A stretch of DNA of 64,000 nucleotides from Pontibacter ramchanderi (GTDB lineage Bacteria > Bacteroidota > Bacteroidia > Cytophagales > Hymenobacteraceae), in the NCBI RefSeq assembly GCF_002846395.1, contig NZ_PJMU01000002.1:620001-684000 (forward strand), written 5' to 3'. Positions 2,574 to 27,900 of the stretch are shown here, piece by piece. The first letter of the stretch is position 1; each line of letters starts with the position of its first letter. The notes beneath the pieces were generated by a model that was not told the DNA's origin, did not search any database, and saw nothing but the letters and a program-made list of their open reading frames with translations. The translations under genes were made by a program, and so were the position numbers.

Positions 2574-3741
2574 TTTAACCTTAGCGCCAACAAGATATTT
2601 GCTCCCAACTATTGTGTTCTCGCAATTTGCGGGCACGTCGCTTTGGTTTGCCGGCAATGCGGTGCTGCCCGAGCTACAGGCTTCGTTGCAGTTGCAGGAT
2701 GGGGCGCTGGCTATGCTCACCTCGGCGGTGCAGTTGGGGTTCATAGCGGGCACACTGGTTTTCGCGTTCCTTTCGCTAGCCGATCGGGTGTCGGCTCGTT
2801 TACTGTTTATGCTATGTGCTTTGCTGGGTGCTGTAGCCAATGCGTTGGTGGCATTTGCAGCCAAAGATCTGTACGCAGTGCTGCTGTTCCGGGCCCTCAC
2901 AGGCTTTCTTCTGGCGGGCATCTACCCGGTAGGCATGAAAATAGCCGCTAGCTGGTATAGCACCGGCTTGGGAAAAGCCATTGGCTACCTGGTTGGGGCA
3001 CTGGTACTGGGTACTGCCTTTCCGCACCTGATCCGGGCATTGGGTGCTACGCTTCCGTGGCAGCACGTGATGTTCGCAGTTAGTGTGCTGGCTGCGGTTG
3101 GCGGGGTGCTCCTATACCTGTTGGTGCCCGATGGCCCATACCTGAAAAAGGGCGTTACCTTCAAAATGGGGAATATGCTGCTGGCTTTCCGTGACCTTGG
3201 TTTCCGATCGGCCGCTTTTGGCTACTTTGGGCACATGTGGGAACTGTATACCTTATGGGCTTTCACGCCGCTGGTCCTGGCCCTGGCATTGCCTCAACTC
3301 ACTCCTGGCGAAGTATCGGCTTATAGCTTTGCTGTGATTGCGGCCGGGGCGGTAGGGTGTATCGGGGGCGGCTATTTATCGCAGGTATGGGGAAGCGCAC
3401 GCGTTGCGTTTGTGCAGCTCCTGCTGTCTGGACTGTGTTGCCTGCTATCGCTCATCGTGTTTCAGGTCAATGCACCACAGCTGCTTATACCTTTCCTGCT
3501 TTTCTGGGGCGTGGTAGTAGCTGGTGACTCCCCGCAGTTTTCGGCTTTAACTGCCCAAACAGCCCCTCCGCAACTGGTGGGCACAGCGCTTACTGTGGTG
3601 GTAGCCATCGGATTTGCCATTACCGTGGTCAGCATACAACTCACCGGTTTCCTGTTATCGCAGTTTGAGCTACACCATACGTTGGCGCTGCTGGCCATCG
3701 GCCCCGCCCTTGGTTTGCTGGCACTGCGCCGTTTGGTGTAA
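2566..3741 (+). CDS. MFS transporter
   Basis: A 391-residue polytopic membrane protein with about 12 hydrophobic segments and the two-half layout of the major facilitator superfamily. The ATG at 2566 overlaps the hydrolase stop by 8 bp and begins directly before the first membrane helix. An upstream in-frame ATG would add 54 low-complexity residues that simply reread the hydrolase gene, so I rejected it. A loop with PDGPYLKKGVTF probably links the two halves. Substrate is unknown. The coupling suggests it moves the substrate or product of the neighbouring hydrolase, which is inference. Confidence 0.87.
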   Translation: MGDLTLAPTRYLLPTIVFSQFAGTSLWFAGNAVLPELQASLQLQDGALAMLTSAVQLGFIAGTLVFAFLSLADRVSARLLFMLCALLGAVANALVAFAAKDLYAVLLFRALTGFLLAGIYPVGMKIAASWYSTGLGKAIGYLVGALVLGTAFPHLIRALGATLPWQHVMFAVSVLAAVGGVLLYLLVPDGPYLKKGVTFKMGNMLLAFRDLGFRSAAFGYFGHMWELYTLWAFTPLVLALALPQLTPGEVSAYSFAVIAAGAVGCIGGGYLSQVWGSARVAFVQLLLSGLCCLLSLIVFQVNAPQLLIPFLLFWGVVVAGDSPQFSALTAQTAPPQLVGTALTVVVAIGFAITVVSIQLTGFLLSQFELHHTLALLAIGPALGLLALRRLV

Positions 3742-14521: not shown

Positions 14522-15514
14522 ATGCCAGCAGAAGAATTAGTGTATCAGGAACAGGTGAAAGACCACCAGCAGAAAATCAAACAGGTCTTTCAGGAAGTGG
14601 GGAAAGTCGTAGTGGGGCAGTCCTACATGGTCAATCGCCTGCTGATCGGTCTGTTTACGGGTGGCCACATACTGCTGGAAGGCGTACCCGGCCTGGCCAA
14701 AACGCTTACCATCAACTCGCTGGCCCGTGCCCTGCGCCTCGACTTCCAGCGCATCCAGTTCACGCCTGATTTACTGCCCGCCGACCTCATTGGCACCATG
14801 ATCTACAATCAGAATGCGTCCCAGTTTGAGGTAAAGAAAGGACCTATTTTCGCGAATCTCATCCTGGCCGACGAAGTGAACCGCTCCCCCGCCAAAGTGC
14901 AGTCGGCGCTGCTGGAGGCCATGCAGGAAAAGCAGGTAACCATCGGCGAGACCACTTATAAGCTCGATCTTCCGTTTCTTGTTTTAGCTACCCAAAACCC
15001 GGTGGAGCATGAAGGTACCTACCCACTGCCTGAGGCGCAGGTAGACCGCTTCATGATGAAAGTATATATCGACTATCCGAAGAAAGCCGACGAACTGGAG
15101 ATTATGCGCCGCATGGCTAACATGGCCTTCAACGACACCGTGAACAAGGTGCTTTCCAAGGAAGACATCTTCGCCATCAGGAGCGAGATCAACCAGGTGC
15201 AGATATCGGAGACGCTGGAGAAGTATATTATTGAGTTGGTTTTTGCGACCCGCCGGCCTGCCGAGTATGACCTCAACGAGTTTGCCGACTACATCCAGTT
15301 TGGCGTGTCGCCGCGTGCCAGCATCGCCCTGAACCGTGCCGCCAAAGCTATTGCCTATTTCGATGAGCGCGATTATGTGCTACCCGAAGACATCAAAGAA
15401 GTAGCGCACGATGTGATGAACCACCGCATCATCCTGAACTACGAAGCTGAGGCAGACGGCATCCGCACCAAAGACTTCATCGAGGCCATTCTGCGTAAGG
15501 TGCCGATCAGCTAA
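14522..15514 (+). CDS. MoxR-family AAA+ ATPase
   Basis: 330 residues, the standard MoxR length. Walker A is GVPGLAKT (54-61), Walker B is LILADEVN (Asp117/Glu118), and a sensor-type QNPVEHEGTYPLPEAQVDRF segment and C-terminal lid follow. MoxR proteins act as chaperones that help assemble or activate vWA-domain proteins. The usual DUF58 and vWA partners are not in the window, so this copy stands alone. TATATTTA upstream, near 14491, is a possible -7 box. It is followed by a 20-bp perfect terminator stem. Confidence 0.95.
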   Translation: MPAEELVYQEQVKDHQQKIKQVFQEVGKVVVGQSYMVNRLLIGLFTGGHILLEGVPGLAKTLTINSLARALRLDFQRIQFTPDLLPADLIGTMIYNQNASQFEVKKGPIFANLILADEVNRSPAKVQSALLEAMQEKQVTIGETTYKLDLPFLVLATQNPVEHEGTYPLPEAQVDRFMMKVYIDYPKKADELEIMRRMANMAFNDTVNKVLSKEDIFAIRSEINQVQISETLEKYIIELVFATRRPAEYDLNEFADYIQFGVSPRASIALNRAAKAIAYFDERDYVLPEDIKEVAHDVMNHRIILNYEAEADGIRTKDFIEAILRKVPIS

Positions 15515-15534
15515 TATAATCACATGGCACATCG

Positions 15535-15585
15535 AACGGGCAATGGCGCCGCATTACACCAGATGCGGCGCCATTGCCCGTTTTT
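15535..15585 (+). terminator. Terminator hairpin, 20-bp perfect stem
   Basis: The arms at 15535-15554 and 15563-15582 are exact reverse complements, with a TTTTT tract after. It ends the moxR transcript. Confidence 0.92.
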
Positions 15586-15687
15586 ATGCCTTATTATAAC
15601 TACCGCTTTCTTATAGCCGTACCTTAAACTCCCAGAACTACTGGTACAGCCACAGGCTTTTTCTATATCATCATGAAGGTATAAGTT

Positions 15688-15876
15688 ATGTTAAAAGGTT
15701 TATTCAGATTTTGGCTGCTGAGCAAATTGTTTGGCGGGAGAGGCAGCGCCGGTGACGGAAGAGGCCGGGGTGGATGTGGCGGCATTGGTTGCCTGGGCAT
15801 TATTGTGCTGGCCGTGCTGGCTTACTTTCTGTTTCAGTACCTGGGCGGAGACGGCAGTGCTGCGACCGATTTTTAA
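15688..15876 (+). CDS. Small Gly-rich membrane protein
   Basis: A 62-residue protein. A short basic/hydrophobic N-terminus (LKGLFRFWLLSKLF) is followed by a glycine-arginine segment (GRGSAGDGRGRGGCGG), then one clear membrane helix (GCLGIIVLAVLAYFLFQYL). It is probably a real small membrane protein rather than chance, because the helix is well formed and the gene sits between two terminators. No function can be assigned. Confidence 0.6.
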   Translation: MLKGLFRFWLLSKLFGGRGSAGDGRGRGGCGGIGCLGIIVLAVLAYFLFQYLGGDGSAATDF

Positions 15877-16389
15877 GGTATAGCTCTTTGAGGACAAAAG
15901 ATGACTTGACAATGGACAAAAGATGCTGTTGCGCAAGGTTGCCAGAAATAACTAACTGGAGGCAGACCGTACGCTTCTTTCCAACTGACTAGGTCATTCC
16001 TGCTTTCTGCTACAATCTTTGGTGCATTCCCATAAAGTCCTTTGTCAACAAACCCTTAGGTATAGGCATAACTAAAAAGACCCGCTCTTACGAGGCGGGT
16101 CTTTGTGCGTGATGTGGGAGACTAAGCCACACCACTATTGATTGCTGCAATTGATCTCACCCATAATGCGCAATCAGTTTCTTATGAAGGCAGGATTGAT
16201 GCAACAAAACTATACACGCTATATTAGCTTTAGATTATTGTAAGGTTACTATATTGTTAAAACTCACGAAAATCCCACAGCACTCGCCGCCATCACCGGG
16301 TCCTCGCCATGCCTGCAAACGCCTGACCAACACACAGAAACTTATATTAACTGTATGTCAACAACTTACAGACAAATATTAATCTTTAT
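15877..16389. other. Long gap upstream of the phosphate block
   Basis: About 510 bp without a credible gene. It contains the terminator at 16074-16104. The remainder is unremarkable AT-rich sequence up to the phosphate-type operator that starts at 16390. Confidence 0.5.
16074..16104 (+). terminator. Terminator hairpin
   Basis: AAAGACCCGC pairs with GCGGGTCTTT across a short loop. It lies about 200 bp after the small membrane protein gene, with no other gene between. Confidence 0.7.
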
Positions 16390-16444
16390 TAATACAAACT
16401 TAACTCCCCATTAATATTGGGGTAATATAACCCTTCTACTTTTG
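16390..16444 (+). promoter_or_regulatory. Putative Pho box plus -7 element (copy 1)
   Basis: Four direct repeats at exact 11-bp spacing: TAATACAAACT, TAACTCCCCAT, TAATATTGGGG, TAATATAACCC (16390-16433). The last repeat starts 18 bases before TTTG of TACTTTTG (16437-16444). The same design precedes the two porin genes. PhoB/PhoP operators are built from 11-bp direct repeats (TTAACA-type in Bacillus), so this is a likely PhoB site driving the TonB receptor and lipoprotein. Confidence 0.8.
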
Positions 16445-16469
16445 TCGCATCAATCAGACTACAATTACA

Positions 16470-19214
16470 ATGCGACAGAATCTCACCACAGTTCTATTTT
16501 TCCTGTTATCCGCTTTCCTTTCCGTGCATGCGCAGACGGGTAGTATACAGGGGGCCATCAAAGACGCTAAAAACGGCGAAGAGCTGATCGGCGCCATCAT
16601 CAAGGTGCAGGGAACGGGGCTGGGTGCTCCGTCGGATGCATTCGGTAAGTTCCGGATCGACAACGTGAAAGAGGGAACTTATACCTTAGAAGTGAACAGC
16701 CTGTCCTACACCCCGAAAACGATTGCCAATGTAACCGTATCGGCAGGCAAAACAACCACCCTGGATGTGGCGCTGGAGCAAAGCACATCTCAGCTGTCGG
16801 AGGTGACGATCACAGCAAAGGGAAACAGGGAAACAGAGCAGATCCTACTCCTGGATCAGAAAAAGGCGGTTATCGCCACGCAGGCCATTGGCGCGCAGGA
16901 GCTCTCCCGCAAAGGCGTCAGCAATGCCGAGGGTGCCGTAGCCAAGATCTCAGGCGTCTCGAAACGCGACGGCGTGAAGAACGTGTTTGTCCGTGGCCTG
17001 GGTGACCGTTACAACACCACTACCCTGAATGGTTTTGCTATACCTTCCGAAGACCCGGAATTCAAGAACATCTCTCTCGACTTCTTCACGAGCGATATCA
17101 TCCAGTCGGTCGATGTGAACAAGACCTTTTCATCATCCATGAACGGCGATGTAGGGGGGGCGTTGATTAACATCAATTCCAAAGAACTGATGGATGACAA
17201 TGCCTTTCAAATTGGAATCTCAACCGGCATAAACAGCCAGGTGCCAGGCAGTGATTTTTACCTCCCCGGAGGGCTGAACAGCTTGGGCTATGCCACTTCC
17301 TCCAACGGTCCGATAGATCTGAATAGCCGACCAGAGGATGTCTCCCGCTATACCTCTAACCACTCCTTCAACACCTCGCTCAACCCGGTTCAGAAAAACC
17401 CGCTGCTCAACGGCGGTCTTTCGATAGCGGGCGGCAGCCAGTTCCTGGGCAAGCATCGCTTTTATGTGATGGGCTCTATGGATAACAAATACCATTACCA
17501 GGAGGGCGTCAGCCGATTGATCACGGCCACCAACCCTGAGAACCCTTTCAAAGACTTCGACTACAAACAGTCTACCCGTAGCGCTTCCCACATGCTGGGG
17601 GGTAACCTGGAGTTTAACCTCAACAACAGCCAACTGCGCTTTAACTCCCTATACCTGCATACAGCCACGGCTGCCGCCTATAACTTCTATGGCAAAGAAA
17701 CCGAGCTGTTCCAGAAAGCGGACGAATTTAACTCGGAAGGCCACACCCGTCGCCTGCAGGTCAACGACAACACCGCTTTCATTAACCAGCTAATCTGGAA
17801 CGGCGACCTGTCGGATAGAATAAAGTTTAACGTGGGTGCTGCCGTAAACCGCGTTATTGGCCAGGAGCCTGACCGCCGCACCATTATGCTTCCTTCAGTG
17901 GGAGATGGCAGGGTAGAATTAGGTATAGGAGAAGGAAGAATCCAGCGCTTCAACTATAAAATAACGGAAACCGCCCTCCTTCCCAAAGCCAACCTGCAAT
18001 ACGCGCTCTCGACAGACCCCGACAAACTGTCTTATGTTGAAGTAGGCTACGACGGCAGAATCAGCGGGAAAGACTTCTCGGCTCCCATTTATAACTACAT
18101 CTGGGATGTTAGCCAAGGCCCTGCTCCTGTTTTCCCGCTGAGCGACATCAACCTGGACCCTTACCTAAACCAGGAAGGGTTGACTAGCGGCCGCTTCTTG
18201 CTGGAGCAAAACCTGGACGTTTACGACGTGAAAAGGATGAACCACGGTGCCTATGTAGACATGGTGCACAAGGCCGGAAACAAGCTTACCTTAAATACAG
18301 GCCTGAGAGCAGATGATGTGTATATGAAGATAAACTATAACGTGAACCGCGGCGCAAACCAGGGCTCTAACGTGATGGACAAATTCTTCTTATCGCCCAG
18401 CTTTAACGCCAAATACGAGCTCGACGACAAAAACCACCTGAGAACAGGCATGAGCCGCACCTATACCCTGCCACAGGACAAGGAGCTATCGCCCTTTATC
18501 TACCAGGGCATCTTCGGAAAAGAAAACGGTAACCCGAACCTGAAGCCTTCTACCAACTACAACTTCGACCTGAAGTGGGACTTTTACCCATCCACAGAGG
18601 AGCAGATATCGGTGAATGCATTTTACAAGCACATTCAGAATCCGATTGCGCGGGTAGACCAGGGCAACTCAGCAGGCCTGGCCACATACGACAACGTGTC
18701 GGACCATGCCGTGGCAGCAGGTGTAGAGGTAGAGGTTAGAAAGTCGCTGATGAACTTTGCAGAGAAACACCGTTTGAACGCCGGCCTGAACGCGTCCTAC
18801 ATTCACACGAGAATAGAAGATCTTCCTAGCTTCTTTGCACAGAACACCTCTTCTACTCTGGAGGGCGCTGCCCCCTACGTACTGAACGCGGACCTGACCT
18901 ATAACCTGGTAACCAGCAGAAATACAAGCCTGACATCGGCCGTAGTGTTAAACTACCTAAGCGATAAGGTACACACCATCGGTACGCGCGGTTACACTAA
19001 CCTGATTGAGAAAGGCATCACCACACTGGACTTTATCACAACGCTGGGCCTCAACGACCACCTCAAATTCAACATAAAGGCGAAAAACCTGCTGAACCCG
19101 GCCTACAGGCTGACCAGAGAAGGCGCCGGCTCCGACACCAAGGCCCAGAGCGTAACGATCGGCAGCTACAAAAGGGGCGCTCAATTCGACTTCGGGGTAA
19201 CCTACCAGTTTTAA
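16470..19214 (+). CDS. TonB-dependent outer-membrane receptor, predicted phosphate-regulated
   Basis: 914 residues. Signal peptide 1-22 (ending SVHAQ), a carboxypeptidase-regulatory-like domain at about 24-110 (GSIQGAIKDAKNGEELIGA), a plug at about 125-245 (VRGLGDRYNTTTLNGFAIPSEDPEFKNI), then a beta-barrel ending in F (FDFGVTYQF). It imports a ligand across the outer membrane using TonB energy. The four-repeat Pho-type promoter and the pst genes 7 kb downstream point to a phosphorus compound. No SusD partner follows; instead a beta-helix lipoprotein does. The ligand is inference. Confidence 0.95.
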   Translation: MRQNLTTVLFFLLSAFLSVHAQTGSIQGAIKDAKNGEELIGAIIKVQGTGLGAPSDAFGKFRIDNVKEGTYTLEVNSLSYTPKTIANVTVSAGKTTTLDVALEQSTSQLSEVTITAKGNRETEQILLLDQKKAVIATQAIGAQELSRKGVSNAEGAVAKISGVSKRDGVKNVFVRGLGDRYNTTTLNGFAIPSEDPEFKNISLDFFTSDIIQSVDVNKTFSSSMNGDVGGALININSKELMDDNAFQIGISTGINSQVPGSDFYLPGGLNSLGYATSSNGPIDLNSRPEDVSRYTSNHSFNTSLNPVQKNPLLNGGLSIAGGSQFLGKHRFYVMGSMDNKYHYQEGVSRLITATNPENPFKDFDYKQSTRSASHMLGGNLEFNLNNSQLRFNSLYLHTATAAAYNFYGKETELFQKADEFNSEGHTRRLQVNDNTAFINQLIWNGDLSDRIKFNVGAAVNRVIGQEPDRRTIMLPSVGDGRVELGIGEGRIQRFNYKITETALLPKANLQYALSTDPDKLSYVEVGYDGRISGKDFSAPIYNYIWDVSQGPAPVFPLSDINLDPYLNQEGLTSGRFLLEQNLDVYDVKRMNHGAYVDMVHKAGNKLTLNTGLRADDVYMKINYNVNRGANQGSNVMDKFFLSPSFNAKYELDDKNHLRTGMSRTYTLPQDKELSPFIYQGIFGKENGNPNLKPSTNYNFDLKWDFYPSTEEQISVNAFYKHIQNPIARVDQGNSAGLATYDNVSDHAVAAGVEVEVRKSLMNFAEKHRLNAGLNASYIHTRIEDLPSFFAQNTSSTLEGAAPYVLNADLTYNLVTSRNTSLTSAVVLNYLSDKVHTIGTRGYTNLIEKGITTLDFITTLGLNDHLKFNIKAKNLLNPAYRLTREGAGSDTKAQSVTIGSYKRGAQFDFGVTYQF

Positions 19215-19284
19215 CAATTAGTTAATATTTCGTTCACATTCAGTTGATCTCTCAACCTTAATATTGTATAAACAATCAAAGAAA

Positions 19285-20412
19285 ATGAAAAAGACAATCC
19301 TTTACCTATTGATGATCCCATTCGGGTTATTCTCGTGCAAAGACGACGAAACGACAACGCCAAGCCCTACAGTGAGCAGCGAACTGAGCGGTGACATCTC
19401 CACTGATGTAACACTTGATCCAAAAATCGAATATAAATTAACCGGCTCGCTGCTGGTAGTGAACGGTGGTAAGCTCAGAATACCGGCTGGCACGGTTATC
19501 AAGGCTGAGAAAGGCTTTAACAAGTATATCCTGGTGGAGCAGGGCGGCCAGATCTTCGTGAACGGCACAGCCGACAAACCAGTTCGAATCACATCGGGAG
19601 CGGCTACTCCTAGCCAGGGCGACTGGGGCGGTTTGATCATCAACGGCAAGGCTAAACTTTCCGGCCCGGCAGGCAAAGTAACCACCAGCACCACAGAAGT
19701 AAACCCGGCCGTTATCTATGGCGGCGACAATAACAACGACAACTCTGGCTCTATCGAATACCTGATACTGGAGTATACCGGCGCGAAATCATCAGCAGAC
19801 ATCGAGCACAATGGCCTGACCCTGAACGGTGTGGGAAGCGGTACCAAGATCGAGAACGTTTACATCCCATACGGTGCTGACGATGCCGTTGAATTCTTCG
19901 GCGGCTCTGTAAACGTAAAGAACCTGCTGGTGGTAGACTCGGACGACGATATGTTTGACGTGACGCAGGGCTGGACCGGCACACTGGACAACGCTTACGG
20001 TGTTTGGAAGGCCGGCTACACCAGTACGGAGTCAGACCCTAGAGGCGCTGAGTTGGACGGCAACCTGGACGGCAATACTCCAGGCGACGTGAACCAGTCT
20101 GACTTCTTCTTCAAGAACATCACCATTGTAAACGAGTCTACTTTCGAAATGCAGGATGCCGTGAAAGTACGCAGAGGCGCTAAGGCCAACATTACAAACC
20201 TGCTGGTGAAAGGCGGTTCTGTAACGGACGTGATCGACATGACAGATGGCAAGGGCAATGGCCATGCCGGAACTGTGATTGAGTATAAAAACGACGGCAT
20301 GGTGGTTAAAGGCCAGGAAGTTAAAAACCCTGACAACGCCAACATCAAATCTAACGCCGCTATCACAGGTGCCAACACCTCCGCATTCGGCTGGACTGGT
20401 TATAAGTTCTAA
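19285..20412 (+). CDS. Beta-helix-like lipoprotein paired with TonB receptor
   Basis: 375 residues from the ATG at 19285; an ATG seven codons earlier is less likely. The signal peptide has the lipobox LFSC. The mature part has repeated short turns rich in G, N, D and V (GGKLRIPAGTVIKAEKG, GGQIFVNGTADKPVRITSG, GDWGGLIINGKAKL), typical of right-handed parallel beta-helix proteins. It lies 70 bp after the receptor and ends in a terminator, so the two form one unit. It is probably a surface or periplasmic ligand-binding partner. The exact role is unknown. Confidence 0.85.
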   Translation: MKKTILYLLMIPFGLFSCKDDETTTPSPTVSSELSGDISTDVTLDPKIEYKLTGSLLVVNGGKLRIPAGTVIKAEKGFNKYILVEQGGQIFVNGTADKPVRITSGAATPSQGDWGGLIINGKAKLSGPAGKVTTSTTEVNPAVIYGGDNNNDNSGSIEYLILEYTGAKSSADIEHNGLTLNGVGSGTKIENVYIPYGADDAVEFFGGSVNVKNLLVVDSDDDMFDVTQGWTGTLDNAYGVWKAGYTSTESDPRGAELDGNLDGNTPGDVNQSDFFFKNITIVNESTFEMQDAVKVRRGAKANITNLLVKGGSVTDVIDMTDGKGNGHAGTVIEYKNDGMVVKGQEVKNPDNANIKSNAAITGANTSAFGWTGYKF

Positions 20413-20469
20413 TTGACGCTGAACACACAACAATTGAAATACGCAGGGGTGGACTAGACTACCTCTCAT

Positions 20470-20508
20470 AAAAAAGGAGCCCGGGCAGCAAGTCCGGGCT
20501 CCTTTTTT
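20470..20508 (+). terminator. Terminator of receptor-lipoprotein unit
   Basis: A 15-bp perfect stem AAAAAAGGAGCCCGG with CCGGGCTCCTTTTTT. Confidence 0.9.
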
Positions 20509-20560
20509 GGTGCCATACCTGTCTTTGTTCCCTGGAGCCCCAATAACTAAACAAACAACT

Positions 20561-20615
20561 TAACATTAACTTAACACTGGCATAACAACCGGGTAATATT
20601 AGTACCTGACCTTTG
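20561..20615 (+). promoter_or_regulatory. Putative Pho box plus -7 element (copy 2)
   Basis: Four 11-bp repeats: TAACATTAACT, TAACACTGGCA, TAACAACCGGG, TAATATTAGTA (20561-20604). TTTG at 20612-20615 is again exactly 18 bases after the start of repeat four and is followed by TGGC, as in copy 3. Two TTAACA words spaced by 5 bases match the Bacillus PhoP box. It drives the first porin gene 130 bp downstream. Confidence 0.82.
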
Positions 20616-20747
20616 TGGCGTCGAAAATGAAAGCAACACAAAATCAGCTGATTAGTGTCTTTCAGGTCCGACACTGCCCCCTTGAAGCGAGTAGACTCCG
20701 CCGAAAGAACAGACTGGGGTAGATAGTAAACCATACTCACCCAAACC

Positions 20748-22037
20748 ATGAAGTTACCAACAGTAATGCGGGCTATCCTGATGGCAGGATTAGTCACTGG
20801 CTTTTTGATTCCGGAAGAAGCAAAGGCACAAGTCGCAGACTCCACAGCACAGGCCGCCTCAGTGGTGGTGCAACAGCCCGCCCCTGCCACAGTGCAGGAA
20901 GCCCCCAAAAAAAAGGCTTGGTACGATAAGATCTCGCTTCGCGGCTATGCGCAGGTACGTTACAACCGCCTCCTCGAGACAAACCCCAACCTCAAGTGCG
21001 ACCAGTGCGACAAATCTATTGGAGAGGGTGGTGGTGTATTCCTGCGTCGCGGGCGTCTGATCTTTAGCGGCGATGTAAGCGATCGTCTCTCCATTTACAT
21101 TCAGCCCGACTTCGCCTCCTCGGCCTCATCCAACGCCTTGCATTTCTTCCAGCTTCGCGATGCCTACTTTGATGTGTCGCTCGACAAGGCCAAGGTATAC
21201 CGCTTCCGTGTGGGTCAGAGTAAGATCCCGTACGGTTTCGAGAACCTGCAGTCGAGCAGCAACCGCCTGGCGCTGGACCGGAACGACGGCTTAAACAGTG
21301 CCATTGCCAACGAGCGCGACCTGGGTATTTTCTTTTACTGGACTCCAGAGGTGATTCAGGAGCGCTTTAAGATGCTGACAGACGCGGGCTTGAAGGGAAC
21401 AGGCAATTATGGTGTATTTGGCATCGGTATTTACAACGGCCAGACGGCCAACAAACCGGAGGCCAACAACACGCAGCACATCGTGACCCGTTTTTCGTAC
21501 CCTTTGCTAGTGGGAAGCAAGCAAATTATTGAGCCCGGCATACAGGCTTATAAAGGCAGGTATGTGGTTACGCCAGACCAGGTATCGTCGGGGGTAGGTA
21601 TAGCCGAGAAGTACCTAAAGGAGGGATTTGACGACGAACGCATCGCCGCTTCGTTGGTCGTGTACCCGCAGCCTTTCGGTTTTCAGGCCGAGTACAACGT
21701 GGGCCGTGGTCCGGAGTTTAACCCGGAAAATAACGCCATTGAAGTGAAAAACCTGCATGGCGGCTATGCGCAGGCCATGTACCGCAAAGAAGTTGGCTCG
21801 CAGGTGCTTATACCTTTTGTGAAGGTGCAGCACTACGAAGGTGGTAAGAAACACGAGCGCGATGCCCCCGGCTACAGCGTATATGAAACCGAAATCGGCG
21901 TGGAGTGGCTGGTGCACAAAAGCGTGGAGCTTACAGCTGACTACAGCATCGGCGACCGCACCATCCGAAACGCCCAGAACTTCGACAACCGCCAGCACGG
22001 TAGCCGCCTAAGGCTGCAGGCCCAGTTTAATTTTTAA
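20748..22037 (+). CDS. OprP/OprO-type phosphate-selective porin
   Basis: 429 residues. Signal peptide of about 29 residues (ending AKAQ), a short Ala/Pro linker, then a beta-barrel of the phosphate-selective porin O/P family (SLRGYAQVRYNRLLE, FLRRGRLIFSGDVSDRLSIYIQPDF, RFRVGQSKIPYGFENLQSS) ending in RLQAQFNF. It lets anionic solutes, chiefly phosphate, cross the outer membrane. It is transcribed alone from a Pho-type promoter and ended by its own hairpin. A second family member follows. Confidence 0.93.
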   Translation: MKLPTVMRAILMAGLVTGFLIPEEAKAQVADSTAQAASVVVQQPAPATVQEAPKKKAWYDKISLRGYAQVRYNRLLETNPNLKCDQCDKSIGEGGGVFLRRGRLIFSGDVSDRLSIYIQPDFASSASSNALHFFQLRDAYFDVSLDKAKVYRFRVGQSKIPYGFENLQSSSNRLALDRNDGLNSAIANERDLGIFFYWTPEVIQERFKMLTDAGLKGTGNYGVFGIGIYNGQTANKPEANNTQHIVTRFSYPLLVGSKQIIEPGIQAYKGRYVVTPDQVSSGVGIAEKYLKEGFDDERIAASLVVYPQPFGFQAEYNVGRGPEFNPENNAIEVKNLHGGYAQAMYRKEVGSQVLIPFVKVQHYEGGKKHERDAPGYSVYETEIGVEWLVHKSVELTADYSIGDRTIRNAQNFDNRQHGSRLRLQAQFNF

Positions 22038-22052
22038 GCAGTGACTATACCT

Positions 22053-22090
22053 GAAAGAGCCGCTTTCTCATGTGAGATAGCGGCTCTTTC
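22053..22090 (+). terminator. Terminator of first porin gene
   Basis: GAAAGAGCCGCT (22053-22064) pairs with AGCGGCTCTTTC (22079-22090); it is 15 bp after the stop. Confidence 0.85.
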
Positions 22091-22163
22091 ATTTAAATAG
22101 GGTAAGGAAGAACCGTCTCACTATACCTTTCCTACCCTCGCTTTCGCATCAAACCTTAATTCT

Positions 22164-22218
22164 TAACATAACCGTAATATGACCATAACTTTCAGGTAAT
22201 ACTAAAGCGGTTGTTTTG
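22164..22218 (+). promoter_or_regulatory. Putative Pho box plus -7 element (copy 3)
   Basis: Four 11-bp repeats: TAACATAACCG, TAATATGACCA, TAACTTTCAGG, TAATACTAAAG (22164-22207). TTTG at 22215-22218 is 18 bases after the start of repeat four. It stands ahead of the second porin gene and, by readthrough, pstSCAB-phoU. Confidence 0.82.
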
Positions 22219-22286
22219 TGGCGAGATTCAAAGCGAGGCAATGGACTGACTACCCAAACCTTTCTAACTGAATCTCTTTAAAGAAA

Positions 22287-22334
22287 ATGCTTGCCATTAG
22301 CTTAATTCTCACCTTAACTAATACAGCAAATTGA
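22287..22334 (+). CDS. Possible 15-codon leader peptide overlapping the porin start
   Basis: An ATG at 22287 opens a 15-codon frame (MLAISLILTLTNTAN) whose TGA stop overlaps the TTG start of the second porin as TTGA. The arrangement would allow translational coupling from a good ATG to a weak TTG. It is short and could be chance. Confidence 0.3.
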   Translation: MLAISLILTLTNTAN

Positions 22335-23518
22335 ACCAAAAACTCACCGGCGTATGCCTGGCTTTCCTTTTTGCCTGCCTCTTCGCTTTCAACACACACG
22401 CACAAACAACCAACAACACCACTTTCGGCAAAGGACTACGCTTCGTAGCAGCCGACTCCTCTTTCAGCATGCAGCTCGGCACCCGATTTCAGCTACTTTA
22501 CCAGGGAGGTCATGATCCTAACACCAAGAACTGGGAAGACCGCTTTCTGATTCGCCGTGCCCGCCTTAAATTCGACGGCTTCGCTTTCTCCCCAAGACTG
22601 GTGTACAAGATTGAGCTCGGCCTGAGTAACAGCGACATCGGCAGCGACGTACCCGACGTGACCAACAACGCCGACAACATTATTCTCGACGCCGTAGCCA
22701 AGTGGGCCCTTACCCCCAACCTGCACCTATGGGTGGGACAGGCCAAACTGCCGGGCAACCGCGAGCGCGTCATCTCTTCGCAGAAGCTCCAGTTTGTGGA
22801 CCGCAGTCTGCTCAACTCCCGCTTCAACCTCGACCGCGATGCCGGCCTGCAGTTGCACCACGAGCATAAGGTAGGTCAGGTGGTACTCCGGGAAATAGGA
22901 TCGCTCTCGATGGGTGAAGGCCGCGATATCACGGTAAACAACTCGGGTGGCTACGACTATACGGGTCGCTTCGAGATACTGCCTTTGGGTGACTTTAAGG
23001 GCGGTGGTGATTATGTGGGCAGCGACATCGAGCGCGAACAAACGCCTAAGCTGTCGCTCGCCGCCTCTTACGACTTCAATGCCAATGCCGCCCGCGAGCA
23101 GGCACAACTCGGCGACTTTCTGAGCGAGACCCGCGACCTGCGCACCTGGTTTGTGGATGCCATGTTCAAGTACCGTGGTTTCTCGGCCATGGGCGAATAC
23201 GCTAACCGCAAAGCCCCTGATGGCCCAGTAGTGCTGCGCGACGAACGCGGGGGCGTGGAGGAAACCTTTGTGACAGGCAGTGCGCTGAACCTGCAGGCTG
23301 GCTACCTCCTCCCAAGCAACTGGGAAGTGGCCGGACGCTATACCGACTACACCCCAACAACCGAAACACGTTTGCGAGCTCAGGACCAGTATACCTTGGG
23401 TATTTCAAAATACATTGTGGGGCATTCGCTCAAAGTGCAGAGCGACGTGACGCTGATACAGGAGGCTGGCCGCGACGACCGCACACAGTTCCGCTTGCAA
23501 ATGGAATTGGCGCTATAA
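22331..23518 (+). CDS. OprP/OprO-type phosphate-selective porin (second copy)
   Basis: 395 residues, from a TTG start at 22331. This start gives a good signal peptide (NQKLTGVCLAFLFACLFAFNTHAQ), and no in-frame ATG precedes the barrel. Family features include GTRFQLLYQGG, FLIRRARLKFDGFAFSPRLVYKIELGLS and WVGQAKLPGNRERV. It has a Pho-type promoter and lies 86 bp ahead of pstS with no terminator between, so it probably leads the pst transcript. It differs clearly from the first porin and is not a recent tandem copy. Confidence 0.9.
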   Translation: MNQKLTGVCLAFLFACLFAFNTHAQTTNNTTFGKGLRFVAADSSFSMQLGTRFQLLYQGGHDPNTKNWEDRFLIRRARLKFDGFAFSPRLVYKIELGLSNSDIGSDVPDVTNNADNIILDAVAKWALTPNLHLWVGQAKLPGNRERVISSQKLQFVDRSLLNSRFNLDRDAGLQLHHEHKVGQVVLREIGSLSMGEGRDITVNNSGGYDYTGRFEILPLGDFKGGGDYVGSDIEREQTPKLSLAASYDFNANAAREQAQLGDFLSETRDLRTWFVDAMFKYRGFSAMGEYANRKAPDGPVVLRDERGGVEETFVTGSALNLQAGYLLPSNWEVAGRYTDYTPTTETRLRAQDQYTLGISKYIVGHSLKVQSDVTLIQEAGRDDRTQFRLQMELAL

Positions 23519-23604: not shown

Positions 23605-24588
23605 ATGCTAAACCTTAGCTTTTCTAAATTTAAACTGAGCGCCGCCCTGCTACTTAGTGCCTCGTTGGCCTTCACGTCATGCGGAGGCAATAGCGGCCAG
23701 GAGGCTGGCAGTGACCTATCAGGTGCCATCCAGATAGACGGTTCTTCCACCGTATACCCTGTAACAGAGGCTGTGGCCGAAGAGTACCGTGCCGAGGCTC
23801 CCAATGTGAAAGTAACCGTGGGCGTGTCAGGTACAGGCGGTGGCATGAAGAAATTCACCCGTGGCGAAATCGACATCGTGAACGCATCGCGCTCCATGAA
23901 CGAGGCAGAAGCCCAGACGGCAAGCGAAAATGGTATTTCGTATGTGCAGCTTTCGGTGGCCTACGACGGCCTGACAGTGGTGGTGCACCCTTCAAACGAC
24001 TGGGCCAAGGACATTACCGTAGCTGAACTGAAAAAGCTGTGGGAGCCCGAAGCGCAAGGCAAAATCATGCGCTGGAACCAGATTCGCCCGGAGTGGCCTG
24101 ACCAGGAGATACACCTTTACGGTGCAGGCGTAGAGTCCGGCACGTACGACTACTTTACGGAAGCCATTGTGGGCAAGAGCCACTCGAGCCGCGGTGACTA
24201 CACGGCCAGCGAAGACGACAATGTACTGGTGCAGGGTGTTTCAACAGATCCACTGGCCCTCGGCTTTTTTGGCTACGCCTACTATGAAGAAAACAAAAGC
24301 AAGCTTAAGGCTATACCTGTAGACAATGGCTCAGGCGGCGTGCTGCCATCGTTGGAAACCGTGAAAGACGGTTCATACGCTCCGCTTTCGCGCCCATTGT
24401 TCCTATACATCAGCTCAAAGGCCATTGCAAAGCCTGAGATCGTGGACTTTGTAAACTTCTACCTCGAAAACGCAGGCGAACTGTCGCAGGAAGTGGGTTA
24501 CATCGCCCTGCCCGACAATGTGTACAAAGAGCAGCAACAGAAGTTCGACGAGTTTGCCAAAAGTGGCGCAACAGCCAATCAACAGTAA
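23605..24588 (+). CDS. pstS: Phosphate ABC transporter, substrate-binding lipoprotein
   Basis: Binds periplasmic phosphate for PstCAB. 327 residues with signal peptide and lipobox FTSC (Cys26). The N-terminal motif IQIDGSSTVYPVTEAVAEEY and VGVSGTGGGMKKFTRGEIDI are the classic phosphate-coordinating loops. ASRSMNEAEA and GVESGTYDYFTEAIVG also fit. It is the first gene of pstSCAB-phoU. Confidence 0.96.
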   Translation: MLNLSFSKFKLSAALLLSASLAFTSCGGNSGQEAGSDLSGAIQIDGSSTVYPVTEAVAEEYRAEAPNVKVTVGVSGTGGGMKKFTRGEIDIVNASRSMNEAEAQTASENGISYVQLSVAYDGLTVVVHPSNDWAKDITVAELKKLWEPEAQGKIMRWNQIRPEWPDQEIHLYGAGVESGTYDYFTEAIVGKSHSSRGDYTASEDDNVLVQGVSTDPLALGFFGYAYYEENKSKLKAIPVDNGSGGVLPSLETVKDGSYAPLSRPLFLYISSKAIAKPEIVDFVNFYLENAGELSQEVGYIALPDNVYKEQQQKFDEFAKSGATANQQ

Positions 24589-24612
24589 TACACTGAAATA
24601 ACCAGCGCAGGT

Positions 24613-25536
24613 ATGGCCTTTGGGAACAAAAGCTATACCTGCGCTTCAATCCATAACACCTTGAGAGTACAGGAGAAAATAATAGAAGGCTTGCTGTGGC
24701 TGTCAGCCGCCATCACCATACTGATCACAGTCAGTATCATTTGGGTGTTGCTGTCGGAGTCGGTCAAGTTTTTTGGCGAAGTGTCTATACTGCGCTTCCT
24801 GACAGAGAAGGAATGGACGCCGCTTTTTGCTGACAAGAAGTTTGGCATTCTGCCGCTTGTGGCGGGCACCTTTCTCACCACAGCCATTGCCATCGCGGTG
24901 GCGCTGCCAATCGGGCTCACCATCGCCATCTACCTGAACGAGTACGCCCACGCCCGTTTCAAAACCTTTGTTAAACCGCTGCTCGAAGTGCTGGCCACTA
25001 TCCCTACGGTAGTCTATGGCTTCTTCGCCCTTACGGTGGTCACGCCGTTTCTGCAGTCCTTTATACCTGGGTTGGCGGGTTTCAACGCCCTGTCGGCTGG
25101 TATCGTCATGGGCATTATGATCATCCCGATGATCTCGTCGCTGAGCGAAGACGCCATCAGTGCCGTGCCCCGCTCCCTGCGCGAAGCCGCCTACGGCATG
25201 GGCTCCACCCGACTGCAGACCGCTTTTGGGGTGATGGTGCCCGCCGCTTCGTCAGGTATACTGGTGTCAGTGATTCTGGCAATATCGAGAGCTGTGGGCG
25301 AGACCATGATCGTAGCCATTGCCGCAGGTCAGCAGCCACGCCTCACACTCAACCCGCTGGTACCGATCGAGACGATTACCACTTACATCGTGCAGGTGAG
25401 TCTGGGCGATGTGCCGCACGGCTCGCTGGAGTACCGCACCATTTTCGCAGCAGGTATGACGCTGTTCTTGTTCACGTTCCTGCTGAACAACCTCAGCTTC
25501 TGGATTAAAAAGAAATATCAGGAAAAGTATGACTAA
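24613..25536 (+). CDS. pstC: Phosphate ABC transporter permease PstC
   Basis: 307 residues, about six membrane helices. The permease EAA-type loop is [23 protein letters not shown], and [13 protein letters not shown] follows. The ATG at 24613 is the only start that keeps a sensible N-terminus. It overlaps pstA by 8 bp. Confidence 0.95.
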
Positions 25537-26386
25537 CTCCGAGAAAAACCGCCTTAAAGACAAGGCCTTTCAGGTGTTTGGCGTCTTCTGTACGCTAATT
25601 GGCCTGGTGGTGCTGGCCATCTTCCTGATCGACATCGTAATTGAGGGCATTGGCCGCATTGACTGGGACTTCCTCACCAGTCTGCCATCGCGCCGCGCTG
25701 CCAGTGCCGGTATACTCACAGCCTGGGCCGGCACCCTCTGGATTTTGGTGCTGTCTGCCGTTATCGCTTTCCCGCTAGGTATAGCCGCTGGCGTATACCT
25801 GGAGGAATATGCCAAAAAGACGAAACTCTCGAACTTCCTGGAGATTAACATTGCTAACCTGGCGGGTGTGCCGTCTATTATTTATGGTTTGCTGGGCCTG
25901 GAGCTGTTCGTGCGCATGATGAACCTGGGCGGTGTTTTACTGGCTGGTGCCCTGACGCTCTCCCTTTTGATTCTACCCATCGTGATTGTTACCACCCGTG
26001 AGTCCATCAAGGCTGTTCCGCGCACCATCCGCGACGGCTCATTTGCGCTGGGTGCTTCCAAGTGGCAAACCGTATGGCACCAGGTGTTGCCTGCCTCTTT
26101 TGGCGGCATCCTCACCGGGGTGATTCTGGCACTCTCCAGGGCAGTGGGCGAAGCCGCTCCGCTGATCGTGATCGGGGCGCTGGCCTATGTGCCGTTTGTT
26201 CCTAAATCGCCCATGGATGAATTTACGGTGCTGCCGATTCAGATTTTCAATTGGACCTCGCGTCCGCAGGCGGCCTTTTTGACCAATGCGGCGGCGGCCA
26301 TCATTATCTTGTTACTGATCACCTTCTTGCTCAACGGCATTGCGGTATACCTGCGCCACCGGCAGCAAAAGAAAATAAAATGGTAA
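25529..26386 (+). CDS. pstA: Phosphate ABC transporter permease PstA
   Basis: 285 residues, six membrane helices. The EAA loop is [23 protein letters not shown], with [15 protein letters not shown] and [14 protein letters not shown] as PstA signatures. It starts 8 bp before the pstC stop, and pstB follows after 10 bp, so the three are tightly coupled. Confidence 0.95.
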
Positions 26387-26396
26387 GTTTTCACCC

Positions 26397-27161
26397 ATGA
26401 CTAAAAAACACAGCAAGTTAGAAGCCATTAACCTCGACGCCTACTATGGCGACTTTCATGCACTCAAAGGCATTAACATCGCCATGGAGGAAAAGGCCGT
26501 AACCGCCTTTATCGGTCCCTCGGGTTGTGGCAAGTCCACGTTTCTGCGCACGCTTAACCGTATGAACGACTACATTGACGGCTTTAGGATAGAAGGCCAG
26601 GTACTGCTGGACGGCCGTGACATTTACGCCGCTGACGTGCGGGTGGACGAACTGCGCAAGGAAGTGGGCATGGTGTTCCAGAAACCCAACCCTTTTCCGA
26701 AGAGCATTTTCGAGAATGTGGTGTACGGCCTAAAGATCCAGGGTATAAAAGACAAAAATGTGCTGCAGGAGGCTTGTGAGAAATCGCTGCAGCATGCTGC
26801 TCTCTGGAACGAGGTGAAGGACAAGCTCGACAAGTCGGCCCTGGCACTTTCGGGTGGTCAGCAGCAGCGCCTGTGCATTGCCCGTGCCCTGGCCATACAG
26901 CCGTCTGTCATTCTGATGGATGAGCCTGCCTCAGCCCTCGACCCCATTTCGACAGCAAAGATTGAGGACTTGATCCACGAACTGAAGAAGGATTACACCA
27001 TTGTAATAGTGACGCACAACATGCAGCAGGCCGGCCGTGTCAGCGACCACACCGCCTTTTTTTACATGGGCGAACTGGTGGAATATTCCAAAACCAAGAC
27101 CATGTTCACCAGTCCAAAAGACACCCGCACGCAGAACTACATCACAGGCCGCTTCGGTTAA
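26397..27161 (+). CDS. pstB: Phosphate ABC transporter ATPase PstB
   Basis: 254 residues. Walker A is GPSGCGKST (40-48), Q-loop in [19 protein letters not shown] signature LSGGQQQR, Walker [15 protein letters not shown]-loop IVTHNMQQA. PstB couples ATP hydrolysis to phosphate import and, with PhoU, signals to PhoR. The NPFPKSI segment is diagnostic of PstB. Confidence 0.97.
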
Positions 27162-27222
27162 CAGTTGCTTACCGCCGTTTCACGTATAGAAATTTAGTCT
27201 CACTCAAAATAACGACTTACGA

Positions 27223-27900
27223 ATGCTACATATTGATGAAGAACTTAACCGGCTGCGGGAAAAACTGCTGGAGATGTGGGACTTGGTGGACCACCAGCTC
27301 AACAGCGGACGCGAAGCTGTTATGAACGCTGACCATGAACTGGCTGACCGCATTATCAAGCTCGAGCGCAAGGTTAACAACTACGATATCAAAATCGACC
27401 GGATGTGCGAGAATTTCCTCGCCCTGTACACCCCTGTAGCAGTAGACCTGCGGGCTGTACTCGCCCTGCTCAAGATAAACACGAACCTTGAGCGAATTGG
27501 CGATACGGCTGAGAGCATGGCCCACTTCGTAAAAAAACTCGACCGCCCTTTTACCCCGGAACTAGTAGAGCTCACCAATATGATGGTGATGTATGACCAG
27601 GCGCTGGCCATGTTCCGCGACTGCCGCGTTGCTTTAGTACAAGATGATCCAAAGCTCGCCAAGGAGGTCATTAAGCTCGACAAGGCCCTCAACAAAATTT
27701 ACCGCAAGTCAGACAGGGTTATCACTAAGTACCTGCAAGCCAACTCTGACCAAATACCTGAAGCATTAGCCATCTTCTCTATCATCAAAAAGCTGGAGCG
27801 TGCAGGCGACCAGGTAACCAACATGGCTGAAGAAATTATCTTTTACCGGGAGGCAAAGGTGGTGAAGCACAAAAGAAAGAAGAAAAAGAAGGACGATTAA
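27223..27900 (+). CDS. phoU: Phosphate signalling regulator PhoU
   Basis: 225 residues, two three-helix PhoU repeats with the usual metal-site pattern (EELNRLREKLLEMWDLVDHQL, TNLERIGDTAESMAHF, KKLERAGDQVTNMAEEI). It restrains PhoR/PhoB signalling when PstSCAB senses enough phosphate. The last residues are a very basic tail (KHKRKKKKKDD) not usual in the family. phoB/phoR are not in the window. A terminator lies about 65 bp downstream. Confidence 0.95.
   Translation: MLHIDEELNRLREKLLEMWDLVDHQLNSGREAVMNADHELADRIIKLERKVNNYDIKIDRMCENFLALYTPVAVDLRAVLALLKINTNLERIGDTAESMAHFVKKLDRPFTPELVELTNMMVMYDQALAMFRDCRVALVQDDPKLAKEVIKLDKALNKIYRKSDRVITKYLQANSDQIPEALAIFSIIKKLERAGDQVTNMAEEIIFYREAKVVKHKRKKKKKDD

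Follow-up and report, generated by a model that had tools for sequence, protein, structure and literature searches.

PHO boxes, the operators of the PhoB, PhoP and SphR regulators in E. coli, B. subtilis, Streptomyces and cyanobacteria, are head-to-tail 11-nt units beside the promoter of phosphate uptake genes (PMC4415409, PMC1906773). One PHO box is described as two such units (8 + 3 nt), with a unit number that varies (PMC4415409), and those of cyanobacteria as having three units or more, built around CTTAACCT (PMC1906773). Among Bacteroidota, the PhoB protein of B. fragilis binds a 512-bp pst promoter fragment in an electrophoretic mobility shift assay, binding being reported for the whole fragment and no mapped box being given in the sections of PMC3547664 drawn on here. 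In F. johnsoniae, a receptor, a lipoprotein and OprP are encoded at phoBR, the receptor-lipoprotein pair being strongly induced by low phosphate and OprP not, and the low-phosphate regulon includes SusCD proteins with phosphoesterases (PusCD), PlcP and a glycosyltransferase (PMC8115612). Small RNAs are known that pair at the translation starts of outer-membrane transporter (susC) mRNAs, as the FopS/GibS RNAs of B. thetaiotaomicron (PMC11697453), or that derive from the 3' untranslated region (UTR) and pair with their own operon mRNA, as OppZ and CarZ of Vibrio cholerae (PMC7398697). Here we describe a locus in a 64-kb window, i.e. the whole stretch of 64,000 nucleotides of Pontibacter ramchanderi analysed, in which four predicted Pho-type operators precede a TonB-dependent receptor gene, two OprP-type porin genes, the second followed by the pst genes, and a candidate small RNA.

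The sites in the window share with PHO boxes the tandem 11-nt direct repeats, the fixed short distance to a promoter element and, by gene position only, a place in front of phosphate uptake and scavenging genes; their TTAAC core is close to the cyanobacterial CTTAACCT. They are predicted boxes and differ in having four TAAY-core units and a fixed 18-base step to the TTTG of a Bacteroidota-type -7 element. An earlier note on this DNA had set the operator apart from that of E. coli by its number of units: the four units are there, but since the unit number of PHO boxes varies (PMC4415409) and cyanobacterial boxes have at least three, they count for little as a distinction, and the operator is a further, new case of the known kind. 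In gene content the window and the genome's set of Pho-type sites resemble, by annotation, the F. johnsoniae regulon, for which, unlike here, the sections of PMC8115612 drawn on describe no operator or small RNA. The candidate RNA is set apart from FopS, which has 14 copies, a 5'-end seed and a context of bile and polysaccharide utilization loci (PMC11697453), by its single copy in the own genome, its conserved words in two apical loops and its Pho operator. In relatives, as in OppZ and CarZ, it lies in the 3' UTR of the mRNA to which it is complementary; in contrast to these, the same RNA also occurs, as in the window, as a gene in its own right behind a Pho operator, and matching sites are present in porin mRNAs that start separately.

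We propose, with a probability of roughly three in four, that a PhoB-driven base-pairing small RNA tunes the PhoB-driven receptor and porins, probably by repression. The four clusters would be operators of a PhoB-type response regulator, whose monomers would line up head-to-tail along the four 11-bp units, with a constant spacing to the -7 element. At low phosphate, judging by anatomy and gene content, phosphorylated PhoB would switch on the receptor, the porins, pst and the RNA together. The fourth operator would drive expression of a small RNA of about 130 nt that presents two conserved loops, of which loop 1 (GGGUGAGA) would pair in the cell with CUCACC near the receptor and porin mRNA start codons, and loop 2 (UUAGUCUC) with GAGACUAA/UGACUAA words in the receptor and porin leaders. 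Most likely the RNA would lower translation of the PhoB-induced outer-membrane receptor and porins, presumably to the physiological benefit of the cell, as an incoherent feed-forward arm where it has its own gene (layout A) and as feedback by the 3' UTR, from which it would be processed, where it ends the receptor operon (layout B). We also find it fairly probable that one RNA jointly sets, through two kissing loops, the output of the TonB receptor and of the two OprP-type porins, and that it has alternated between 3' UTR and free gene in several Hymenobacteraceae genera with Pho control and target words kept.

Base-by-base reading confirmed the three plus-strand clusters of the earlier note, each with four TAAY units in exact 11-bp steps and TTTG 18 bases past the start of the fourth unit. 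Operator 1 (16390..16444; TAAY at 16390/16401/16412/16423, TTTG at 16441) lies 5' of the TonB-dependent receptor gene (16470..19214, plus strand), operator 2 (20561..20615; TAAY at 20561/20572/20583/20594, TTTG at 20612) 5' of porin 1 (20748..22037, plus strand), and operator 3 (22164..22218; TAAY at 22164/22175/22186/22197, TTTG at 22215) 5' of porin 2 (22331..23518, plus strand, TTG start codon according to the open reading frame (ORF) finder) and of pstS, pstC, pstA, pstB and phoU (23605..27900, plus strand). A fourth exact operator, not listed in that note, was found on the minus strand (16205..16259, reading 16259-16205) in the gap between a MoxR-type gene (14522-15514) and the receptor gene (16470), its TAGTTTTG adjoining the RNA gene. 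At up to three mismatches the pattern occurs five times in the window, four times exactly, where 0.03 occurrences are expected from 100 dinucleotide shuffles. The step from the last unit to TTTG is 18 bases at all four sites, with few one-base exceptions among relatives. The Bacteroidota -7 box is said to have the consensus TAnnTTTG; among the three sites of the earlier note, which had claimed a fixed offset to this box, the TTTG spacing is exact throughout, but the complete box is present only at 16437 (TACTTTTG, 16437-16444), the second and third sites reading GACCTTTG and TTGTTTTG. It is also complete at the minus-strand site. TAA is invariant in all four units across 30 aligned sites, which were themselves picked by the pattern.

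The nearest named genomes belong to Pontibacter (10 loci, with 77-93% receptor identity over the best segment) in the family Hymenobacteraceae, of which 204 genomes were searched; their genera are labelled g1 to g6, and g1 is taken as Pontibacter because of these nearest named genomes. The receptor operator is present in all ten Pontibacter relatives (no mismatch in nine, one in the tenth), as is the minus-strand operator, each time without mismatch. Nine of the ten loci carry one or two more sites downstream (11 sites, 0-1 mismatches), with a porin homologue behind all 11, and locus L033 has no further downstream site at up to two mismatches. Over the whole 4.43-Mb genome the bare pattern gave six exact, three one-mismatch, no two-mismatch and ten three-mismatch places, and the reversed pattern, as a control, 17 places at up to three mismatches over all classes together. 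We therefore give separately the results of a refined, sequence-only site model built from 30 pattern-chosen sites, which had 16 matches at E ≤ 10 in the own genome and a match at E ≤ 0.01 in 52 of 60 family genomes. After four training sites its best match precedes a SusC gene (E 8.9e-5), then SusD and a calcineurin-type phosphoesterase, and its second-best non-training match a PlcP-like Metallophos_2 gene and a glycosyltransferase gene (E 9.7e-4); C3:918224 (E 0.0035, no target named) and a MarC gene (E 0.0041) follow. In 29 genomes, counted by the best locus only, the site stands before the receptor or one of the two porins in 29 of 29, including eight g5 porin sites outside the training set. 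These relatives, together with the phosphoesterase genes behind the best non-training sites, support the view of the earlier note that the clusters are likely PhoB operators.

Two of these places deserve mention in their own right. L200 477-8618 is a likely Pho-controlled SusC-SusD-phosphoesterase cluster that resembles the Flavobacterium PusCD clusters, with an exo/endo-phosphatase-family gene downstream. At L201 1466-3291 an exact operator is followed by the PlcP-like phosphoesterase and the glycosyltransferase, possibly for phospholipid replacement during phosphate starvation. As to the regulator, the genome encodes six OmpR-type regulators. The response regulator of L003 and its PhoR-like kinase are those best matched by the PhoB and PnpS/PhoR models, the DNA-binding domain matches the E. 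coli PhoB entry 1gxp (E 1.2e-23), and this pair is the likeliest regulator of the window sites.

The candidate small RNA lies at 16072..16204 on the minus strand, with a predicted length of about 130 nt, three hairpins and a 3' intrinsic terminator. Hairpin H1 (16139..16176) exposes the loop GGGUGAGA at 16155-16162, hairpin H2 (16109..16135) the loop CUUAGUCUC at 16118-16126 with the conserved word UUAGUCUC, and hairpin H3 (16077..16103) is a covarying intrinsic terminator followed by a U tract. About 130 nt are conserved in 11 genomes up to the stem-loop and U tract, past which the sequences diverge. RNAalifold folds these 11 sequences into the three hairpins, with double compensatory changes at 11 of 27 pairs; the covariation score of 0.395 was reached in none of 500 shuffles and was 0.08-0.14 with the partners slid. 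In a larger alignment, fitted to the model and with doubtful rows included, 24 of the 27 pairs show double changes in 71 matches. Single-sequence folds of four sequences are 3.3-4.8 standard deviations below shuffles. The loop words are open in the predicted ensemble: GGUGAG of H1 has a mean unpaired probability of 0.86 (57 of 59 RNAs) and (U)UAGUC of H2 of 0.96 (58 of 59), against 0.35 for nt 21-110. Computationally, a structured RNA is thus conserved in the genus and in some sister genera. No ORF of at least 80 aa lies between the fourth operator and the MoxR-type gene, and a small-protein reading was rejected: the single ORF of at least 20 aa overlapping 16204-16072 on its strand has 20 aa, and the AUG of the H1 region loses its frame in L032 through a base deletion. 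Rfam 15 gave no match over the RNA at E ≤ 1 (window positions 15400-16600) or at E ≤ 0.1 (L046, L076, L085 and L098), the matches elsewhere being sub-threshold miRNA and whalefall-1 only.

A covariance model of the RNA (R1, threshold E ≤ 0.01) matched 82 of the 204 family genomes: 50/50 of g1, 8/8 of g2, 2/2 of g3, 14/16 of g5, 8/120 of g4 and 0/8 of g6. The remaining two g5 genomes (G139 and G143) have a receptor leader with the target words, and with a targeted search the RNA was located some 4 kb downstream (E 6e-8 and 2e-10). We discounted as chance the g4 matches (E 5.6e-5 to 0.008), which lie near no receptor or lipoprotein gene, L103 (g5) and L107 (g1), which likewise lack such neighbours, and the second match in L096; these rows and L097 remain in alignment A2, the source of the 71-match covariation. 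The model thus finds the RNA in all 50 genomes of g1 and in three of the five sister genera. Across 241 genomes of the order R1 had nine matches, every one within the family, and in the own genome one. As a separate observation, a second copy resembling the RNA stands in L097 (g3) at 3001-3125 on the minus strand, apart from any receptor or lipoprotein gene; its loop 2 is present and its loop 1 altered (GGGUGACG).

The RNA occurs in two layouts. In layout A, that of the window, an operator without mismatch directly abuts the RNA and the receptor is divergent (16 of the 30 genus loci examined); all 16 divergent-receptor loci have the operator beside the RNA. In layout B the RNA is the 3' UTR of the receptor-lipoprotein operon and starts at most about 25 nt (in one case 53 nt) past the last stop codon, which belongs to the lipoprotein gene or, in some genomes, to the receptor gene. 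When 20 such operons were traced upstream, an operator was found directly before the receptor in 16 (up to two mismatches, mostly TAAA for TAAY in unit four) and before the lipoprotein gene, which comes first, in the other four. For all loci followed, the predicted control of the RNA is thus by the same kind of operator, and Pho control would be kept in both layouts.

Both loops find complements in the receptor messages. The leader word AGACTA (16456..16461, plus strand) is complementary to 6 nt of the H2 loop, a match that alone is no better than chance, and TCTCACC in receptor codons 4-6 (16481..16487, plus strand) is the complement of the H1 loop, its CTC ACC codons being invariant in 16/16 genomes. 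Indeed, codons 5, 6, 7, 9 and 10 (CTC ACC ACA .. CTA TTT) are all invariant in the 16 genomes, as against 2 of 42 later conserved degenerate columns. Receptor mRNAs of layout B carry GAGACTAA 5-6 bases past TTTG in 16/16, near the likely 5' end of the mRNA, and CTCAC 15 or 21 bases past the A of the ATG in 15/16. A word test blind to the loops, with a threshold of 15 out of 16 sequences, retained four six-mers for the receptor 5' ends and eight for the RNAs; three of the four are reverse complements of RNA six-mers, where 0.008 are expected, and the same-sense, reversed and complement controls gave no match each. Conserved single-stranded loops complementary to conserved target words, as expected of a base-pairing small RNA, are therefore present. 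In 13 of 19 genomes the complement of the entire loop 2 (GGGWGACTAAKCC) is present once, always inside the RNA itself, so there is no full-length loop 2 target. The two-site pattern GAGACTAAN{8,38}CTCACC, sorted by eye over the 204 family genomes, falls on the RNA antisense, on layout B receptor leaders and on sparse other places, and in the own genome the SusC, PlcP and MarC leaders do not have both words together. In four lipoprotein-first loci (L082, L092, L095 and L115), TTTTCTCACC(C)AATCT about 25 nt before the receptor ATG is complementary to loop 1, with the order reversed relative to the other layouts.

The porin leaders carry the same words. In the window, CTCACC (20736..20741, plus strand) lies just 5' of the porin 1 ATG (20748), and the porin 2 leader has TGACTA (22247..22252, plus strand), the complement of the H2 loop core, in a predicted hairpin loop, and TCTCACC (22307..22313, plus strand), the complement of the H1 loop, 5' of the start. 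Among 22 genus porin leaders, taken as 200 nt past TTTG with both window porins included, CTCACC and TGACTA are each found in 19 and rank joint first among all hexamers, their frequencies in 2,498 background tiles being 5.8% and 3.2%. For g5, TGACTA is present in 8/8 leaders, again joint first, and CTCACC in 5/8. Outside the genus, GACTA occurs in 8/9 and CTCACC in 6/9 leaders of RNA-positive genomes, as against 0/10 and 1/10 in RNA-negative g4 and g6 genomes (Fisher p 1.2e-4 and 0.02), the comparison covering the 10 of 14 RNA-positive and 10 of 30 RNA-negative genomes with a porin match and leaving out the partial match L260. Loop and site also change together: the g3 loop reads GGGUGAAAAC/GGGUGAAAAU, the porin sites read GTTTTCACCC/TTTCACCC in 2/2, and the porin change is silent, the start being Met-Phe-Ser-Pro as in g5 porins (start codon by our own reading).

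Several results weigh against this proposal. Measured by the curated PhoB cut-offs, the best PhoB candidate falls short (224.8 of 296.2 and 208.5 of 270), and the phoB gene itself has no such operator at up to four mismatches. One of the 16 layout B receptors (L132, G180) lacks CTCAC, the g3 receptor 5' ends have GAGACTAA in 2/2 and the loop-1 site in 0/2, and CTCACC is missing from 3 of the 22 genus porin leaders. Duplex energies in single species improve only modestly on shuffles (p 0.007-0.10 for loop 1 in layout A and p 0.003-0.17 for the layout B sum; the L090 row is void through a wrong start, and L085 and L086 are not included), the layout A site for loop 2 does not exceed chance (p 0.34-0.88), and as proof of pairing the single-species energy was discarded as too weak. 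RNA-positive porin leaders are longer (209 nt vs 142 nt), which weakens the word comparison, although GACTA against only the six long RNA-negative leaders is still 8/9 vs 0/6 (p 0.0014). The target words are not more accessible than background (0.55 and 0.63 vs 0.56). Predicted folds of the second-porin leaders of the window and three relatives place GACUA in hairpin loops, yet the whole-leader folds do not surpass shuffles (z -0.4 to -1.8 for five leaders), so a loop-loop contact is plausible, no more. Finally, the sequences are related, so the counts are not independent events.

The same pairing could also activate, if the RNA opened porin leader hairpins or protected the mRNA. The genus porin leaders run about 90-130 nt to CTCACC and some of their predicted hairpins hold GACUA in the loop, and a leader-hairpin layout with the target word in the loop occurs for activating small RNAs too; a shared inducer for RNA and targets fits either sign. 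However, CTCACC is placed in the opening codons of the receptor gene and, for the porins, at the start or a short way 5' of it, and pairing around start codons usually blocks initiation. FopS, which pairs at susC start regions in Bacteroides, represses (PMC11697453). Because of this position of the words and this precedent we consider repression the likelier sign and activation rather unlikely.

The regulator of these operators might not be PhoB but a different member of the OmpR family, or several paralogues that recognise similar sites. The earlier note had held that occurrence of the pattern at many unrelated promoters would speak against its proposal, and this is partly the case: the bare pattern also matches C1:1383351 and C4:76788, which may be sites of another OmpR-type regulator and are absent from the 16 matches of the refined model. 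In these two places, at L007 1501-1555 (minus strand) and L015 1501-1555 (plus strand), the bare pattern of four TAAY units, with 0 and 1 mismatch and of TTTTTAAT flavour, precedes a SulP-like transporter gene beside a CusR-like two-component pair and an outer-membrane-protein-like gene, respectively. Four TAAY units alone are thus not specific, as the bare pattern is found at SulP and outer-membrane protein genes that the refined model omits. These sites, the six OmpR-type regulators and the lack of an operator at phoB favour another regulator; against it, the strong sites mostly precede phosphate uptake and scavenging genes, and the receptor-lipoprotein pair of F. johnsoniae, alike by annotation, lies by phoBR and is induced by low phosphate (PMC8115612). 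We regard control by a regulator other than PhoB as improbable.

It is very improbable that the RNA acts in cis only, as a terminator and as a 3' UTR that circularises or stabilises its own mRNA by pairing with the 5' end. In layout B the closeness of the RNA to the last stop codon and the GAGACTAA at the 5' end of the same mRNA would fit such a role, but in layout A the RNA, divergent from the receptor, comes with an operator and a terminator of its own, and the porin mRNAs with matching words start at their own operators. Least probable of all is that the complementarity is a by-product of words kept for promoter, ribosome or protein reasons: the words do sit in functional places (5' end, signal-peptide codons) and the single-species energies are unremarkable, but the reverse-complement match far exceeds its controls, synonymous codons are frozen, the words are rare where the RNA is absent, and loop and site changed in a matched way in g3 porins.

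Regarding the other genes of the locus, the receptor has a carboxypeptidase-regulatory domain, a plug and a barrel, and both porins belong to the Porin_O_P family. The lipoprotein-like gene (19264..20412, plus strand) is the partner of the receptor; it has no Pfam or NCBIfam match, and homologues 31-42% identical adjoin the receptor in other genomes. Just 3' of the MoxR-type gene, a very strong 20-bp inverted repeat with a T run (15536-15581) is a likely terminator and attracts sub-threshold miRNA matches in Rfam. In P. aydingkolensis, the leader of the phoU-like gene (L033, ~17320) has TCTCACCC 25 nt before the ATG, and the phoU leader of the window reads TCTCACTC.

Small RNAs that repress outer-membrane protein mRNAs and 3'-UTR autoregulators are known already; new would be that one is under Pho control in this phylum, has its seeds in paired loops and occurs in two layouts. 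The literature searched showed no Bacteroidota Pho box or Pho-driven small RNA, which is no proof of absence, and to our knowledge both the inducer and the targets are known for few small RNAs of Bacteroidota. The inducer site, the RNA, its seeds and its target sites are here all predicted from one 6-kb locus and could be checked by few point mutations. For a Bacteroidota lineage, the analysis provides a sharply defined Pho operator that lends itself to testing, and would add an RNA arm to its phosphate response. Moreover, the 3'-UTR and free-gene layouts inside one genus may offer a natural series for RNAs becoming independent genes.

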